From a virus, in IMG/VR virus record IMGVR_UViG_3300045283_000190, positions 1-53,113 of that record: a stretch of 53,113 bases of DNA; one strand, 5' to 3'. The notes below the pieces were generated by a model, which was given only the letters and a program-made list of their open reading frames with translations, did not search any database and was not told the DNA's origin. How positions within the stretch are numbered: the stretch's first letter is position 1; each line of letters opens with the position of its first letter. Shown here in pieces: positions 12,816 through 50,634 of this stretch. A program made the position numbers and the translations under genes.

Positions 12816-13088
12816 ATGACCGTTGACGAACAGTGCGGGAATCGCATCCGGCAGGCAAGGCACCTTGCAGGGCTTACCGCTCGGCAGCTGGCCGAAAAGA
12901 TTGGGCGTTCCCCCACGACGGTATTTCGCTGGGAATGGGGCGTGAGGCTGCCCACGCGGCAGGGCATCGTGGCGTGCGCCGAGGCGCTCGACGTCCCGAG
13001 CGCCTGGCTGTTGTGCGGCTTGCGCGGGCTTCCGCGCGACCTGCGTGAACAGGCCCAGCGCCTCGAGCGCGCGGGGCGTGCGCTGTGA
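12816..13088 (+). CDS. XRE-family regulator (Cro-like)
   Basis: 90 residues; HTH at about 10-60 (IRQARHLAGLTARQLAEKIGRSPTTVFRWEWG in parts). There is no ribosome-binding site before the ATG (the leader is CCCTCCC) and the predicted transcript starts only a few bases upstream, so translation may be leaderless. It is the first gene of the rightward early operon: the primase-helicase starts in its last bases. Probable role is to shut off the opposite repressor during lytic growth. Confidence 0.8.
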   Translation: MTVDEQCGNRIRQARHLAGLTARQLAEKIGRSPTTVFRWEWGVRLPTRQGIVACAEALDVPSAWLLCGLRGLPRDLREQAQRLERAGRAL

Positions 13089-15073
13089 TGCGCGACGCCC
13101 ACTCCCGGCTGCTCGAGCGCGTGCTGTCGCAGCTGAAGGGGGTGAGACGCGAGGGCAACCACCACAAGGCCTGCTGCCCGGCGCACACCGACAGCACCCC
13201 GTCGCTGTCGGTGCGCCTGGGGGACCGGGGGGTGCTGCTGCGCTGCTTCGCCGGCTGCACGCATCAGGACGTGGTCGCGGCGCTCGGGATGCGGGTCGAG
13301 GAGCTGTTTTTTGACTACGACCCCGAGCGTAAGTTCGAGCGGCCGGTCGAGCAGGCGGACCCCACGCACGAGCTCGGGCTGACGCTCGCGGCGTTCGCGG
13401 AGCACAAGGGGCTCGACCCCGAGCTGTGCGACCGGCTCGGGCTGCGCGACGCCATGATAGCGGGTCGACGCGTGGTCACGTTCGCCTACCCGCTGCGTGA
13501 TGGCACAAGCGCGCGACTGCGCATTCGCGCGACGCTCACGGGCGAGAAGCGTTTTCGGTGGGAGGGTGGTGACATCGAGGTCGCGGCCTACGAGCCGGAC
13601 CTCGGAGCGCTCGCCCGTGCGCGCAAGTACGTCTGCATCGTCGAGGGGGAGAGCGACGCGCTGACCCTGCTGACGCACGGCATCCCGGCGATCGGCCTTC
13701 CGGGCGCGGACACGGCGCGCTTGCTTCAGCCGCACCACGTCGAAGGTGTCGAGCGAGCGTTCGTCTTTCGCGAGCCGGACAAGGGCGGCGACAGCTTCGC
13801 CCGCAACGTGCCGGCGGCGCTCGAGCGCATCGGCTTCACCGGCAAGATGCCTGTCGTGCGCATGCCGGAAGGCACCAAGGACGCGAGCGCGCTGTACCTG
13901 AGCAACCGCGAGGGCTTCGTGCGTGCGCTCGAGAAGCTGCTCGAGAAGGCTGACCCGCCACGCAGTAAGTCGCTCGAAGTGCTGTTCTCGATGCAGGCGG
14001 TCGAGCGCGCCGAGCTGCGCTCAGGCTTCGCGCAGCTGGACCGAGCGTTCGACGACGGCGGGCTTCCGCTCGGCAAGCTGTGCGTGCTGGTCGGTGGTCC
14101 GGGCAGTCGCAAGACCGGGCTCGGCGTGCACTTTGCGGACGTGTTCAGCCGCCAGGGTGCCGCGGTGATGTTCATGTGCGCCGATGAAGACCGGCACAAC
14201 ATCGTCTCGCGGCTCGGTCAGCGCATGGGCTTTCATCGGCGGGGCCTGCGCGACATGGATGAGATCGGCGACGCGACGCGCGCCGAGGCTGGCCGTCAGG
14301 AGGCCGCGCTCGATCGCATCCTGCACCTGGCGGAGCTCGGCGACCCCGAGGACGCGCAGACCATCGAGGATGCGTACACGGAGCTGATGAGCATCGGCAA
14401 GGGTCGTCCGCGCGTGTTGATCGTCGACTCGCTGCAGGCGTGCCGCAGCGAGGCTGCGGAGGCGCTCGACCGACCGGACCCACGCGTCGCGGTCGACGCC
14501 AAGGTGCGGGCGCTGCGGCTGATCAAGCAGACCGGCGTGTTGGTCATCGTGATCAGCGAGACGCGGCGCAGTTTCTACGGTGGGGGCAAGCCCATCACGA
14601 AGGATGACGTTCTGAGCGCCGCGAAAGAGTCGGGCGGCGTGGAGTTCGGCGCGGATCTGATCGCCGGCATGGTGCGGGACAAGGTCGATGAGAATCTGGT
14701 CGAGCTCTTGGTGGCCAAGTGCCGCTTTGGCCAAGAGGCTCGCTTCTCGCTCCGCTGGGACCGACGCTACGCCACGCTCACCGAGCTCGAGCCGGAAGCC
14801 GAGGCGCGCGCGCGCCAGGACCGCGAGGACAAGACCTCGCACGACGAGCGGCGCGAGAGCCTGCGCGAGGCGGTCTACGAGCTGGTCGAGCGCCGGCCCG
14901 GACTGACCCGCACCCAGCTTCGAGCAGTCCTCAAGAAGGGACGCGTCGCCGTCAATGAGGCCATCGACGAGCTGTCCGCAGAGGGGCGCATCGTCGAGCA
15001 GAAGAACGGCAACGGAGCCCGTTCCCCCATCTACACGCAGGATGCACTTCTCCGTCAGGAGCGTGGCGAATGA
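13088..15073 (+). CDS. Primase-helicase fusion
   Basis: 661 residues from ATG 13088 (GTG 13085 also possible). CHC2-type zinc site near residues 29-57 (CCPAHTDSTPSL, CFAGC), a TOPRIM domain at about 180-215 (VCIVEGESDALT), then a RecA/DnaB-type ATPase with Walker A GGPGSRKTG at 336 and Walker B VLIVDSLQA at 443, and a C-terminal winged-helix-like part (about 590-650, RPGLTRTQLRAVLKKGRVAVNEAI). It should unwind DNA and prime lagging strands. The Walker A has Ser-Arg where Gly or Ala-Gly is usual. Translationally coupled to the Cro-like gene. Confidence 0.9.
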   Translation: MRDAHSRLLERVLSQLKGVRREGNHHKACCPAHTDSTPSLSVRLGDRGVLLRCFAGCTHQDVVAALGMRVEELFFDYDPERKFERPVEQADPTHELGLTLAAFAEHKGLDPELCDRLGLRDAMIAGRRVVTFAYPLRDGTSARLRIRATLTGEKRFRWEGGDIEVAAYEPDLGALARARKYVCIVEGESDALTLLTHGIPAIGLPGADTARLLQPHHVEGVERAFVFREPDKGGDSFARNVPAALERIGFTGKMPVVRMPEGTKDASALYLSNREGFVRALEKLLEKADPPRSKSLEVLFSMQAVERAELRSGFAQLDRAFDDGGLPLGKLCVLVGGPGSRKTGLGVHFADVFSRQGAAVMFMCADEDRHNIVSRLGQRMGFHRRGLRDMDEIGDATRAEAGRQEAALDRILHLAELGDPEDAQTIEDAYTELMSIGKGRPRVLIVDSLQACRSEAAEALDRPDPRVAVDAKVRALRLIKQTGVLVIVISETRRSFYGGGKPITKDDVLSAAKESGGVEFGADLIAGMVRDKVDENLVELLVAKCRFGQEARFSLRWDRRYATLTELEPEAEARARQDREDKTSHDERRESLREAVYELVERRPGLTRTQLRAVLKKGRVAVNEAIDELSAEGRIVEQKNGNGARSPIYTQDALLRQERGE

Positions 15074-15095: not shown

Positions 15096-15308
15096 CCTTG
15101 CCCGGAACCTTGCCCGGAACCTTGCCCGGACCTCGGGCAAGGTACCTTGCCTGACCCCTCGGGCAAGGTTTGGGGCAAGGTTCCGCGCCTATAACACGTG
15201 CGCGCGCGCGCTCTTATTCTCTAGTGTAAGACCTTGCCTTGGCGCCCCCGTGAGGGGGGCGCAGGCAAGGTCTCAGAGGCAAGGTTCCGGGCAAGGTTCC
15301 GGGCAAGG
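15096..15308. repeat. Iteron-like CCTTGCC/GGCAAGG array (candidate replication origin)
   Basis: Twelve copies of CCTTGCC in 213 noncoding bases. Forward copies start at 15096, 15108, 15120, 15145 and 15232; reverse copies (GGCAAGG) at 15136, 15162, 15174, 15264, 15278, 15290 and 15302. The outer groups are three tandem 12-bp units each, facing each other. In the middle is a perfect 8-bp hairpin (GCGCCCCC 15242-15249, GGGGGCGC 15255-15262) framed by the 15231-15238/15264-15271 pair, beside a less GC-rich stretch (15212-15230). Position behind the primase-helicase fits an origin. Confidence 0.75.
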
Positions 15309-15347
15309 TTGCATTCCCCGCCACGCCACCGCCCCCGAGGTCCGGCC

Positions 15348-15953
15348 ATGCCCCTGAGCTTCCGCGAGGCGCGGGCCGTGCTGCTCGGTGGCCGCGAGGG
15401 TCCCGGCTACGTGCTGGGCATCGACCAGGCCACCAGCAGCGGCTGGGCCGTGGTCGACCTGCAGACGCTGCGCTGCGTGAGGTCTGGCCAGGTGCGCGGG
15501 CATCTCGAGCAGGAGCACGCTCTCGCGGAGCTCGCCGAGACGCCGGGGCTGTGCTGGCCGAGTGTGCTGGTGGTGCTCGAGGATCACCGGCACATCCCAG
15601 CGAGCGACGGCATCCCGACGCGGAGCCTGCTGACGCTCGGGGAAGCGCGCGGTCGTTGGCTCGCGCTGCTGAGTCAGCGAGGCCAGCCAGAAGGCGCACG
15701 CATCCTCGCGGAGCCTTCGGTCTGGCGCCGCATGCTGGGCACCACCGCGAGGCTTCCCCGCAAGGCCTGGAAGGCGCAGGCGGTGGCCTGGGCCAAGGCG
15801 CACACGGGCCGCGACGTGCGCAGCGACGACGAAGCCGAAGCCGTGGTGATCGCGCTCTGGGGCGCCACGCAGGGCCTGGTGAAGTGGGCGAGTGAACGCC
15901 GCGAAGTGGCACCGAAGAAGCGGCTGATGAAGCCGCGGAGGAGAAGCGCATGA
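15348..15953 (+). CDS. RuvC-like Holliday junction resolvase
   Basis: 201 residues from ATG 15348 with GAGG upstream. RNase H-like fold with the catalytic acids in the expected places: VLGIDQATSSGWAVVD (D25), VVLEDH (E78) and RSDDEAEAVVIALWG (D160-E162). It should resolve branched DNA made during replication and recombination, before packaging. It lies immediately downstream of the candidate origin. Confidence 0.85.
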   Translation: MPLSFREARAVLLGGREGPGYVLGIDQATSSGWAVVDLQTLRCVRSGQVRGHLEQEHALAELAETPGLCWPSVLVVLEDHRHIPASDGIPTRSLLTLGEARGRWLALLSQRGQPEGARILAEPSVWRRMLGTTARLPRKAWKAQAVAWAKAHTGRDVRSDDEAEAVVIALWGATQGLVKWASERREVAPKKRLMKPRRRSA

Positions 15954-16301: not shown

Positions 16302-16493
16302 ATGTCTGACGATCTGCTGATGACTGGGAAAGACGTCGCCGCGAGGGCGCGCGTGAATCTGAGCACCTTCTATCGCTGGTGCCGGCGCGGCATCGGCCCG
16401 CGCTCGATCCGCATCGGCGGCACGACCCGCTACCGCACCAGCGAGGTCGAGCGCTGGCTAGAGACCGATCACCTACGCACCACCAAGCGCTGA
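16302..16493 (+). CDS. AlpA/excisionase-like HTH protein
   Basis: 63 residues forming a MerR-type winged helix (LMTGKDVAARARVNLSTFYRWCRRGIGP, RIGGTTRYRTSEVERWLE). Such proteins act as excisionases (recombination directionality factors) or small transcription regulators. Since no integrase was found, a regulator of the following accessory genes is more likely. Confidence 0.78.
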   Translation: MSDDLLMTGKDVAARARVNLSTFYRWCRRGIGPRSIRIGGTTRYRTSEVERWLETDHLRTTKR

Positions 16494-16513
16494 CAGAGAG
16501 AGGAACCGTCCCC

Positions 16514-16741
16514 ATGCCTATCGATTCGGCACAGCAAGAGCAGCTCGACAACTGGTTTTCGTACCACCCGCCCGTCGGCGACCAGGCCGCGCGCTACGGC
16601 GCCATCCGCGCAGCGGGCAAGGTCTTCGCCGAGAAGCTGACCGAGGTCTGCCCGGCGTCTGCAGACCGCACGGTCGCCATCCGGCACGTGAGAGACGCGG
16701 TCTATTCGGCAAACGCCAGCATCGCCTGTGGTGGCACATGA
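16514..16741 (+). CDS. Acb2/Tad1-family anti-defence sponge
   Basis: 75 residues. The helical hairpin pattern NWFSYHPPVGDQAARYGAIR (YHPP at 17-20), GKVFAEKLTEVCPASADRT and VAIRHVRDAVYSANASIA closely follows the Acb2/Tad1 hairpin family (Acb2 is also called Vs.4). Known members assemble into hexamers that capture the cyclic nucleotides made by CBASS or the signals made by Thoeris, and so block abortive defence. GAGAGGA precedes the ATG. It is the strongest anti-defence call in the genome; which nucleotide is bound cannot be told from sequence. Confidence 0.88.
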   Translation: MPIDSAQQEQLDNWFSYHPPVGDQAARYGAIRAAGKVFAEKLTEVCPASADRTVAIRHVRDAVYSANASIACGGT

Positions 16742-16980
16742 CCTGCTGCCCGCACCTCGAGACGGTCGCGTTAGGCACGCCGACCGACTGCCCGCTGCAG
16801 CGCCTCGCGGACGCCACGATCATGGCCACGCACCTGCACCGGCCCGGGCTCGCGGTGGTGGTGATCCTGGTCGACCTCGCGGACGGTCACACCGCGATGG
16901 GCGCGAGCGGCCTGCCTGCGCCGATCGTCGCGCGGGTGCTCGCGGATGAGGCCGCAGCCATTCGGCAGGGCGGGTCGTGA
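16738..16980 (+). CDS. Hypothetical protein behind Acb2-like gene
   Basis: 80 residues. An N-terminal Cys/His cluster (MTCCPHLETV, CPLQRL) is followed by a hydrophobic beta strand (LAVVVILVDLADGH). The ATG lies in the Acb2-like stop (ATGA), so the two are co-translated and may work together. No family recognised. Confidence 0.6.
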   Translation: MTCCPHLETVALGTPTDCPLQRLADATIMATHLHRPGLAVVVILVDLADGHTAMGASGLPAPIVARVLADEAAAIRQGGS

Positions 16981-17234
16981 CGATATCGCCTCGCAGCAGC
17001 CGCAGCAATGGGCACAGCCTTGCCATGTACGTGGTCTATGACCATCCCGCGGACCATCCCAACCACTACGCGCTGCGTCGTCAGGACGTGCACGGGGGGA
17101 AGGTGTCGACCGCCAAGGAGGTGGTGCTGTTCAGCTCACTCGAGGGAGCGCGCAGCTGGTGCCGGAAGCTTGGGCTGACGCCGATCGGGCGCATGCCGCA
17201 GGACGACCCAGCCATCGCGGAGGTCTGGACGTGA
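16977..17234 (+). CDS. Hypothetical protein
   Basis: 85 residues from GTG 16977; ATG 17025 would give 69 residues beginning MYVVYDHPADHP, which looks the more structured start. The core is a small alpha/beta unit (YVVYDHP..., VVLFSSLEGARSWCRKLGL). No family recognised. Part of the coupled accessory run. Confidence 0.55.
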   Translation: MTISPRSSRSNGHSLAMYVVYDHPADHPNHYALRRQDVHGGKVSTAKEVVLFSSLEGARSWCRKLGLTPIGRMPQDDPAIAEVWT

Positions 17235-17548
17235 GACGCAAGGACCTTACGCGTGTGGACATCGACTTGCTCCGCGAGGCGCTCTTGCTGCTGCGCGCGT
17301 GCTGGCCCAACGCGTCGTCAGGGGACTTCTCGATCGGGATGGACCTCGACACGGTGCAGGTCTACATCGAGTTCCCCCACGGTCGCGGAGGAGACGCGCC
17401 TTACTATGGCGATGCCACCTACGAATGCACGGGCATCAGCACGAACGACGCGCTGCGCAAGCTCATCGATGAGCAGCTACGTCCGCAGCTCGCGAGGATT
17501 CGCGCGGGCAAGCGGCCGGAGCTCGAGTGGCCAGAAGTAGACGATTAG
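17231..17548 (+). CDS. Hypothetical protein
   Basis: 105 residues from GTG 17231, with GGAGG 8 bases upstream inside the previous gene. N-terminal helix (DIDLLREALLLLRACW), a beta hairpin (MDLDTVQVYIEFPHG) and a C-terminal helix. No family recognised. It lies between the Acb2-like and RyR genes. Confidence 0.6.
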   Translation: MRRKDLTRVDIDLLREALLLLRACWPNASSGDFSIGMDLDTVQVYIEFPHGRGGDAPYYGDATYECTGISTNDALRKLIDEQLRPQLARIRAGKRPELEWPEVDD

Positions 17549-17569
17549 TCAGATCGAAAGGGGAACGTC

Positions 17570-18082
17570 ATGACAACCGAAACGCCAGAGACCAAGCCAG
17601 CAGAGCCAGCGACATCGCCACCTGAAGCAACGCAGATCCCTGCGGAGCCACCGCCAACGGCAACGACGCTGCCTGCGGAGCCACCCCCCGAGCCAACGCA
17701 GCTCCCCGCGGAGCCGCCATCGCGCGCAGTGATCGAGGCCATCGCGCGCCTCGCCCACCGCATCAACAACGTTTATCGATTCTCCCGTGGAGAACACATC
17801 GAGCGCTGGGACGACGCGAGCGCAGCCACCAAGCGCAGCGTGATCGCCGGCGTCGAAGCGCGACTGTCGGGCAGAGTCCGCAGCCCCGAGGACGCCCACA
17901 AGGGGTGGCTCGAGTTCAAGCGGGCCGAGGGCTGGCGACATGGGCCGGTGAAGGATGAGAAGCTCAGGACTCACCCCTGCTTCAAGCACTATCACGAGCT
18001 TGCGCCTGAGCAGCGCGTGAAGAACGCGCTGTTCATCGCAGCGGTCGACGGCGCAGCAGGAGTCTTGCGCGCACGAGGGTAG
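17570..18082 (+). CDS. RyR-domain protein
   Basis: 170 residues. Residues 1-50 are a Pro/Glu/Thr-rich disordered leader with repeated PAEPPP. Residues 54-160 are a complete RyR (ryanodine receptor repeat) domain: ARLAHRINNVYRF, ERWDDASAATKRSVIAGVEA, SPEDAHKGWLEFKRAEGWRHG, VKDEKLRTHPCFKHYHELAPEQ and ALFIAAVDG. Prokaryotic and phage RyR domains have been proposed to bind nucleotide-derived signals. Sitting about 0.8 kb behind the Acb2-like sponge on the same strand, it may be a second nucleotide sponge or sensor; this is inference. Confidence 0.88.
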   Translation: MTTETPETKPAEPATSPPEATQIPAEPPPTATTLPAEPPPEPTQLPAEPPSRAVIEAIARLAHRINNVYRFSRGEHIERWDDASAATKRSVIAGVEARLSGRVRSPEDAHKGWLEFKRAEGWRHGPVKDEKLRTHPCFKHYHELAPEQRVKNALFIAAVDGAAGVLRARG

Positions 18083-18107
18083 ACACAGCAACACGGCAGG
18101 GGGTCAC

Positions 18108-18818
18108 GTGGAGCGGATGGCCATCGATCAGACTGAGCTTGACGACCTGATCGCGCGCGAGATCGCAGAGGCACAAAGCGCCATGTGGGGGGACCACGAT
18201 CTAGGAGACCGCATCGACGCGAACGGCTACGAGACAGACAACCCGCAAGGCACACTCGCGGACAGGCGCACGCGCGCCGTCGTCGCGTACCACTGCCAGC
18301 TTCCCGAGGGGACGTGGTGTCCCACGCGCCTGCGCCGGCAGGACCAGGTGATGCTCATCGGCGCCGTGCAGTGCGTGGTCGCTATGCCGGCACGCGGCAG
18401 AGAGTATTTCTTGGGCTACGCACCCGCGCACTACGGTCCGCGGCTGGTACGGTTCAAGTGGGACCTGGTGACCGCTCGCATGCCGAGCGACCCGGGAGAC
18501 CCGGGCATGCCCATCGCGGGCAATACGGCAGCGTCGTACGCTCCCCTCTCGGACGTGCCTGACGACGAGTTTTTCGCGGCGCTCGACGAGCCGACGAACG
18601 CCGCCAAGCAGTTCACGCGCCTCGCACGCAGGACGCTGCGGGCGCTCGTAGCGCTGTGGTGGCTCGCCAGGTCCACGCGCTGGCTCAGCACGCTCGCCAT
18701 GGTGCTGGGGGCAGGACTGATCATGCTGCTCACCGGAAACGTCGTGGCGGCGCTGGTGACGGTGCTGCTGACCGCCGTCCTGTACGCGTTCTGGTCGCGG
18801 CTGGTAGGAGACACATGA
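18108..18818 (+). CDS. C-terminally membrane-anchored protein
   Basis: 236 residues from GTG 18108 (ATG 18117 is close by). Residues 1-165 are soluble with a beta-rich middle (REYFLGYAPAHYGPRLVRFKW) and an acidic segment with DDEFFAALDEP, similar to the FDALLREP motif of other proteins here. Two hydrophobic segments (about 190-210 and 213-230) anchor it in the membrane. Last large gene of the Acb2/RyR block. Function unknown. Confidence 0.65.
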   Translation: MERMAIDQTELDDLIAREIAEAQSAMWGDHDLGDRIDANGYETDNPQGTLADRRTRAVVAYHCQLPEGTWCPTRLRRQDQVMLIGAVQCVVAMPARGREYFLGYAPAHYGPRLVRFKWDLVTARMPSDPGDPGMPIAGNTAASYAPLSDVPDDEFFAALDEPTNAAKQFTRLARRTLRALVALWWLARSTRWLSTLAMVLGAGLIMLLTGNVVAALVTVLLTAVLYAFWSRLVGDT

Positions 18819-18901
18819 CCGTGGAGATGGTCCTCGTGCCCCTGGCCATCCTCGCCACGGGCGGGACGTGGGTGCTGTGCTGGCGCCAGAGCCGGTCCTA
18901 G
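18815..18901 (+). CDS. 28-residue single-span membrane peptide
   Basis: It starts in the stop of the previous gene (ATGA) with AGGAG 5 bases upstream. Residues 5-22 form one hydrophobic span, followed by a short basic tail. Coupling and ribosome-binding site make it plausible despite its size. It ends 4 bp inside the convergent gene. Confidence 0.45.
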   Translation: MTVEMVLVPLAILATGGTWVLCWRQSRS

Positions 18902-49809: not shown

Positions 49810-50634
49810 ATGACTCAGTTCTTTCTCGGTGCCCACCGCCCTCACTGGCTCAGCCTCTCGGCCGCTCCCCTGTTCGTGTCGGACGCGACCCTGCGCGTTC
49901 GCGGCAAGGACTACGCAGGCAAGCTCGAGCACCGCGCGATTGCGCCGTGGGGCCTCGACTCGGGGGCTTTCTCGGAGGTCAGCAAGCACGGTCAGCACCT
50001 GACCTCGGCGAGCTCGTACGCGGCGCGGGTGCGGCGCTACCACAGCGAGATCGGACAGCTCGCGTTTGCCTCGGTCCAGGATTGGATGTGCGAGGAGGTC
50101 GTGCTCAAGCGCACGGGGTTGACCGTCCGCGAGCACCAGCGCCGCACGGTCAGGAGCTACCTCGAGTTGTGCGAGCTCGCGCCTGAGCTGCCGTGGATGC
50201 CGGTTCTGCAGGGCTGGGGGCAGGGCGACCACATGGACCACCTCGAGATGTACGACGCGGCCGGCGTCGACCTGCGCAAGCTCCCGCGCGTCGGGGTGGG
50301 CTCGGTGTGCCGGCGGCAGGGGCAGGTTCGGATCTCACTGATGCTCGGCGAGCTGCAGCGCGAGGGGCTGCAGCTGCACGGCTTCGGCGTGAAGGCGGAC
50401 GGCATCGCGCTCGCGCTCGAGCACATGACGAGCTGCGACTCGATGGCGTGGTCGCAGCACGAGCGCAAGGAGCACCGCCAGAAGCTCATCCAGGACCCGA
50501 CGCTGCCCAAGACTGGCAAGCAGAACGACCTCGGCGCCGCGCTCGACTGGCTCGGGAACACGGTCGACGCGACCATCGCTCGCGCCAGGCGCGCAGTCAC
50601 CAGCGACAAAGCCATCGTGCGGGCTGCAGCGTGA
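49810..50634 (+). CDS. dpdA: DpdA-family 7-deazaguanine DNA transglycosylase
   Basis: 274 residues. Key motifs of phage DpdA (a relative of tRNA-guanine transglycosylase) are present in order: GLDSGAFSEVSKHG (D50), SVQDWMCEE (Q90-W92), PVLQGW (131-136), GVGSVCRRQ (162-170), LHGFGVK (189-195) and SCDSMAWS (208-215). These enzymes swap guanine in DNA for a 7-deazaguanine such as preQ0, which blocks many restriction enzymes. No queC/D/E or folE gene is in the genome, so the base must come from the host. Confidence 0.9.
   Translation: MTQFFLGAHRPHWLSLSAAPLFVSDATLRVRGKDYAGKLEHRAIAPWGLDSGAFSEVSKHGQHLTSASSYAARVRRYHSEIGQLAFASVQDWMCEEVVLKRTGLTVREHQRRTVRSYLELCELAPELPWMPVLQGWGQGDHMDHLEMYDAAGVDLRKLPRVGVGSVCRRQGQVRISLMLGELQREGLQLHGFGVKADGIALALEHMTSCDSMAWSQHERKEHRQKLIQDPTLPKTGKQNDLGAALDWLGNTVDATIARARRAVTSDKAIVRAAA

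Follow-up and report, generated by a model that had tools for sequence, protein, structure and literature searches.

Organization of the locus

The window, by which we mean the whole stretch of DNA analysed here (53,113 bases, 68% G+C, an IMG/VR virus record), is a tailed phage. No tRNA genes were found within its 53,113 bases, and a 24-kb megablast against 50,697 phage records returned no close relatives. Genes of the SSB, ERF and Gp157 types lie on the minus strand, before the rightward genes, among which are a primase/helicase gene (13085-15073) and a gene for a RuvC-like resolvase (15234-15953) upstream of the block of interest. Downstream of the block follow the terminase small subunit, the portal and long genes up to about 48.5 kb, and a queuine tRNA-ribosyltransferase-like gene occupies 49876-50634 (phrog_1279, E 1.3e-60).

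The block itself spans 16302-18901. An earlier note, made from the letters of the DNA, had described it as eight small genes on one strand, mostly overlapping, and our reading of the open reading frames (ORFs) confirmed this: all eight are on the plus strand at the coordinates given there, with 4-bp overlaps between adjoining genes at 16738/16741, 16977/16980, 17231/17234 and 18815/18818. The codon-position G+C content is coding-like in all eight ORFs (third position 0.75-1.00) and a purine-rich ribosome-binding stretch precedes most of the starts, which supports them as genes. A codon-usage gene call independently retained most of them and omitted those starting at 16302, 17570 and 18815. Within the block, only HTH_17, Acb2_Tad1_hairpin and RyR exceeded the Pfam cut-off.

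The first gene (16302-16493) encodes a small MerR/excisionase-like helix-turn-helix protein of 63 aa, which matches PF12728 (HTH_17) with 44.4 bits against a cut-off of 27 and the excisionase/regulator family phrog_66 with E 3e-11. It had been called AlpA-like; Phage_AlpA (PF05930) itself scored only 15.5 bits, below its cut-off of 21.

Five further products have no Pfam match over the cut-off. Three of them are orphans, namely the 80-aa protein of 16738-16980, whose gene shares 4 bp with the Acb2 gene, the 105-aa protein of 17231-17548, and the 236-aa protein of 18108-18818, which has a hydrophobic C-terminus and is putatively membrane-anchored. None of the three has a relative in the 50,697 phage records or in the other loci fetched, no relatives of 17231-17548 were found in viral contigs, and scans of viral contigs with single proteins of the window gave few or no relatives. 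The fourth (16977-17234, 85 aa) is a small conserved phage protein, with relatives at about 40% identity only in 56 Microbacterium phages (tblastn, 50,697 phage records); one of them is gene 90 of Antares, which lies towards the right-hand end of that phage's genome, and no recognised sponge was seen in the neighbourhood examined around these relatives. The fifth is a 28-residue peptide, hydrophobic by its predicted sequence (18815-18901), which overlaps 18108-18818 by 4 bp; GTAGGAG precedes its start, and its status as a real gene is uncertain. The genes at 16738, 16977, 17231 and 18108 had been put forward as candidates for new anti-defence genes. This found no support, with three of them lacking relatives and the relatives of the other not lying beside a recognised sponge, and a counter-defence role for these four would be a guess.

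An Acb2-type protein

The gene at 16514-16741 (plus strand) encodes a predicted Acb2-type cyclic-nucleotide sponge of 75 aa. The Acb2/Tad1 identity proposed for it earlier is borne out by the match to PF24729 (E 1.7e-12, 47.7 bits, cut-off 27), together with a predicted structure that consists of a short helix plus a hairpin; the protein also matches phrog_1454 (E 2e-17), and scans of IMG/VR gave at least 488 relatives. In the AF2 model (pLDDT 90), helices span residues 5-15, 24-45 and 50-73 and there are no strands. In Acb2 a short helix at the N-terminus is followed by a long antiparallel helical hairpin, and there is no beta domain (PMC12043709); the hairpin domain and three-helix layout are thus common to our protein and to Acb2 (T4 Vs.4; PF24729). 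The residues conserved in its family are F15, P20, R32, A66-N67-A68, I70 and A71, and compared with Acb2 it represents a divergent subfamily with the motif FxYHxPxxxQxxxY...ANAxIA.

In the PDB, a single-sequence search found no relatives, a profile search from the family found only 'Acb2 homolog 43' (9ptq, E 0.001), and Foldseek with the model, which says little on a helical protein of this size, gave no significant match, T4 Vs.4 (7uq2) being aligned with a TM-score of 0.61 but an E of 9. The PF24729 hairpin is also common to Tad1 (Thoeris anti-defence 1), which however has an N-terminal antiparallel beta-sheet domain (Tad1 chains among the PDB matches have 123-138 aa), whereas the 75-aa protein has no predicted strands. 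Sequence and model thus clearly indicate an Acb2/Tad1-hairpin protein of the Acb2 rather than the Tad1 type, and the absence of the Tad1 beta domain points to CBASS, which Acb2 inhibits as a hexamer binding cyclic di- and trinucleotides, as its probable target.

An RyR-domain protein with a replaced catalytic acid

The gene at 17570-18082 (plus strand) encodes a 170-aa RyR-domain protein of the RyDEP family. It matches PF02026 (E 3.6e-7, 30.8 bits, cut-off 27.4), phrog_5154 (E 1.9e-28) and, by sequence, the RyDEP structure 35tm_A (E 8.2e-11). Alignments to RyR relatives place the RyR (R12-type) domain proper at residues about 53-160 (17726-18049), behind an N-terminal tail of some 50 residues rich in Pro, Glu, Ala and Thr. 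The model of the domain has four helices (pLDDT 96), and Foldseek retrieved with it RyR Repeat12 entries (probability 1.00, best E 1.4e-3), some of which are complexes with AMP-PCP or ADP. The earlier description as a full RyR domain is therefore right at the level of the fold, while the Pfam match is partial, spanning profile positions 26-71 of 91.

Phage RyR proteins (RyDEP) were recently described in a preprint of May 2026 as glycosidases or sponges of the Thoeris signal 2'/3'cADPR (PMC13232231). RyDEP itself has the catalytic dyad H75/D117 and the ligand contacts W78 and H100; H75 is the proposed water-activating residue, D117 also touches the terminal ribose of the ligand, and the dyad is reported to be required for degradation, with D117N among the mutants made (PMC13232231). 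RyDEP is gp78 of phage DyoEdafos, on which we checked the residue numbering, and PDB 35tm is identical to it over the 84 residues compared. The protein of the window shares with RyDEP the RyR/R12 domain and keeps H75, W78 and H100, as H110, W113 and H135 in the alignment. It differs from RyDEP in its Pro-rich tail and in that the catalytic acid D117 is replaced by Asn (N152, codon AAC, 18023-18025, plus strand). Its gene also lies near an Acb2 gene, whereas the record of DyoEdafos gave no PF24729 match. Among 198 distinct RyR domains from the fetched loci, this position is Asp in 196, Gly in one and Asn only in the window protein, where it depends on a single base in a single metagenomic contig. 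The Gly is found in the RyR-domain protein of L335:2956-3363. The equivalent of Q54 was also considered as an indicator of whether the signal is cut or held, and was dropped since its alignment depends on the method (S in one alignment and V in another).

These residues bear on what the protein may do. If it were an active glycosidase that cuts 2'/3'cADPR as RyDEP does, its family and the conserved H75, W78 and H100 would fit; however, the dyad reported as required is broken by the Asn, and none of eight RyDEP homologues tested from across the family cut the signal (PMC13232231). Moreover, RyDEP lies within a NARP1 operon in DyoEdafos, where NARP1 genes flank it in the record (an arrangement not required of the family), whereas no NARP1 partner genes were found around the gene of the window, which as a whole has no match to PF04095 (NAPRTase) or PF13793 (ribose-phosphate pyrophosphokinase). 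We regard such an activity as highly improbable.

It could also be proposed that the gene is decaying, with the replaced acid and two departures in the NRxYC motif (NR to NN, C to R) as marks of lost function, and indeed several positions near-invariant in the family differ. Against this, the ORF is intact and has a ribosome-binding stretch, the fold model is confident, and the protein keeps every one of the 12 columns that are invariant in alignment A1 (H15, W32, H62, W65, W74 and H87 among them), though by construction, as it is itself part of that alignment. Decay thus seems very unlikely.

A third proposal is that the protein sequesters or senses another nucleotide, such as ADP-ribose, ATP/ADP, a further isomer of cADPR or the cyclic oligonucleotides of Acb2, the Asn reflecting altered specificity. 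In animals, the homologous pocket of RyR Repeat12 domains takes up adenine nucleotides, cADPR was not bound by two of the eight RyDEP homologues (PMC13232231), and none of the other sampled domains has Asn at this ribose-contacting position. On the other hand, the H, W and H residues of the pocket are unchanged, and most of the family members tested (six of eight) do bind 2'/3'cADPR (PMC13232231). We consider this proposal unlikely.

The best reading of the sequence, given the Asn in place of D117 and the lack of NARP1-type genes in the window, is a predicted non-catalytic, sponge-type RyR protein that binds without cutting. Against this reading, the Asn could weaken binding, as D117 contacts the terminal ribose in RyDEP. 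Sponge-type RyDEP homologues of Ruegeria and Pectobacterium phages (PMC13232231) have the same domain and would likewise be non-catalytic binders. Unlike the window protein, those of Ruegeria V21 and Pectobacterium Nepra, which may not be the ones tested in the preprint, keep D117, so they would be non-catalytic for another reason, and neither of their records gave a PF24729 match.

Coupling of Acb2 and RyR genes in other phages

Co-occurrence of Acb2-like and RyR genes, which the earlier note had proposed to look for across phage genomes, was found in other phages, so that this check, meant as a possible refutation, did not refute its proposal. With profiles built from the fetched relatives and subsequent Pfam confirmation, four natural fusion proteins were found, in both domain orders. 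RyR precedes Acb2 in L102, in L289 and in SUFG_00048 (AGH07415.1, L409:2971-3537) of the cultured Sulfitobacter phage phiCB2047-B, and Acb2 precedes RyR in L114; both domains are over the Pfam cut-off except in L289, whose Acb2 domain scored 25.1 bits against 27. The two orders imply, as judged from sequence, at least two independent joinings. In three further gene pairs (L044, L202 and L408) the stop of the Acb2-type gene overlaps the start of the RyR gene, and in four near pairs (L300, L161, L160 and the window) a distance of roughly 0.2 to 1.1 kb separates the genes; in the window, three small genes (828 bp) lie between them. All of the unfused cases (7/7) have both genes on the same strand with Acb2 first. 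SUFG_00048 is annotated as hypothetical. Four other loci with long matches (L308, L325, L331 and L346) were rejected as fusions on reading.

As for frequencies, PF02026 was matched in 5 of 50 Acb2-seeded records and PF24729 in 8 of 50 RyR-seeded records; in control viral contigs, chosen by an arbitrary 15-mer, the corresponding numbers were 0 of 35 and 1 of 35. The first Acb2 profile missed the divergent L289 and L408, so that pairing counts obtained from it are lower bounds. At the frequency that RyR has among deposited phages (286 of 50,697), the binomial probability of five or more in 50 is 1e-5, a rough yardstick in view of the shorter control contigs and the non-independence of phage lineages.

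Could the Acb2-type and RyR genes be independent accessory genes, not paired in function, that merely share one hypervariable region? Small accessory genes cluster anyway, 45 of the 50 Acb2 records have no RyR match, and a search of the 50,697 phage records gave neither a tandem nor a fused match to L114, and for L102 matched phiCB2047-B alone (two records). But chance would hardly produce four fusions, with both domain orders among them, and three overlaps of stop and start, and at the level of the families these make the explanation strained; we hold it to be quite improbable. The pairing of Acb2 and RyR is recurrent and not obligatory, most phages with one family lacking the other, and in view of the overlapping genes and fusions in other phages it looks selected rather than accidental.

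Two other arrangements were seen. In Gordonia phage Chidiebere (L023, MN586022.1) the Acb2-type gene lies at about 11.9 kb, some 38 kb from the RyR gene at about 50.5 kb. In a 110-kb viral contig (IMGVR_UViG_3300037297_000249), about 13 genes follow one another on one strand at L407:161-9271; most have an RyR-like domain and one has two, and many are strongly diverged. RyR paralogues seem to have multiplied greatly here, and the same contig also carries an Acb2-hairpin gene (L124).

Discussion

Acb2 and RyDEP are each known already, and what is new here is the recurrent link between them, as read from gene and domain arrangements. The searched literature contained no paper with both 'RyR domain' and 'Acb2', although the pairing may be known beyond that, and Acb2 goes unmentioned in the preprint on RyDEP (PMC13232231). 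The preprint nevertheless answers much of the question that the earlier note had raised on the RyR protein. The suggestion that this protein is a second sponge gains support from the preprint, from the recurrent Acb2-RyR fusions and from the overlapping gene pairs.

We think it likely that this tailed phage carries the block as a counter-signalling cassette, in which the Acb2-type protein acts against CBASS and the RyR sponge holds the Thoeris signal 2'/3'cADPR uncut. The Acb2-type protein would bind and hide cyclic di-/trinucleotides and so block CBASS; the RyR protein would bind 2'/3'cADPR, its expected signal by analogy with RyDEP, in the four-helix pocket and, with its catalytic acid D117 replaced by Asn, would hold the signal without cutting it. 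Together the two proteins might disarm two signalling defences at once. Their binding, ligand identity, sponge mode and joint action are what we infer from the comparisons above. With about even confidence we extend this to a wider proposal, namely that Acb2 and RyR form a recurrent two-signal counter-defence module, whether fused, overlapping or neighbouring, which disarms CBASS and Thoeris together; that in the fused proteins RyR dimers would sit on an Acb2 hexamer, giving a single particle that takes up cyclic oligonucleotides as well as cyclic ADP-ribose; and that the RyR protein of the window is naturally non-cutting.

Several consequences would follow. The window protein offers a natural test of whether the acid of RyDEP is needed for cutting only or for holding the signal too, and SUFG_00048 of phiCB2047-B is a concrete cultured test case for the fusion. 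As a rule for searching, domains fused to Acb2 or RyR genes or overlapping them are suggested as good candidates for further signal sponges. From the repeated coupling and fusion of the two families it would follow that CBASS and Thoeris confront phages jointly, and that bifunctional signal sponges are the phages' answer.
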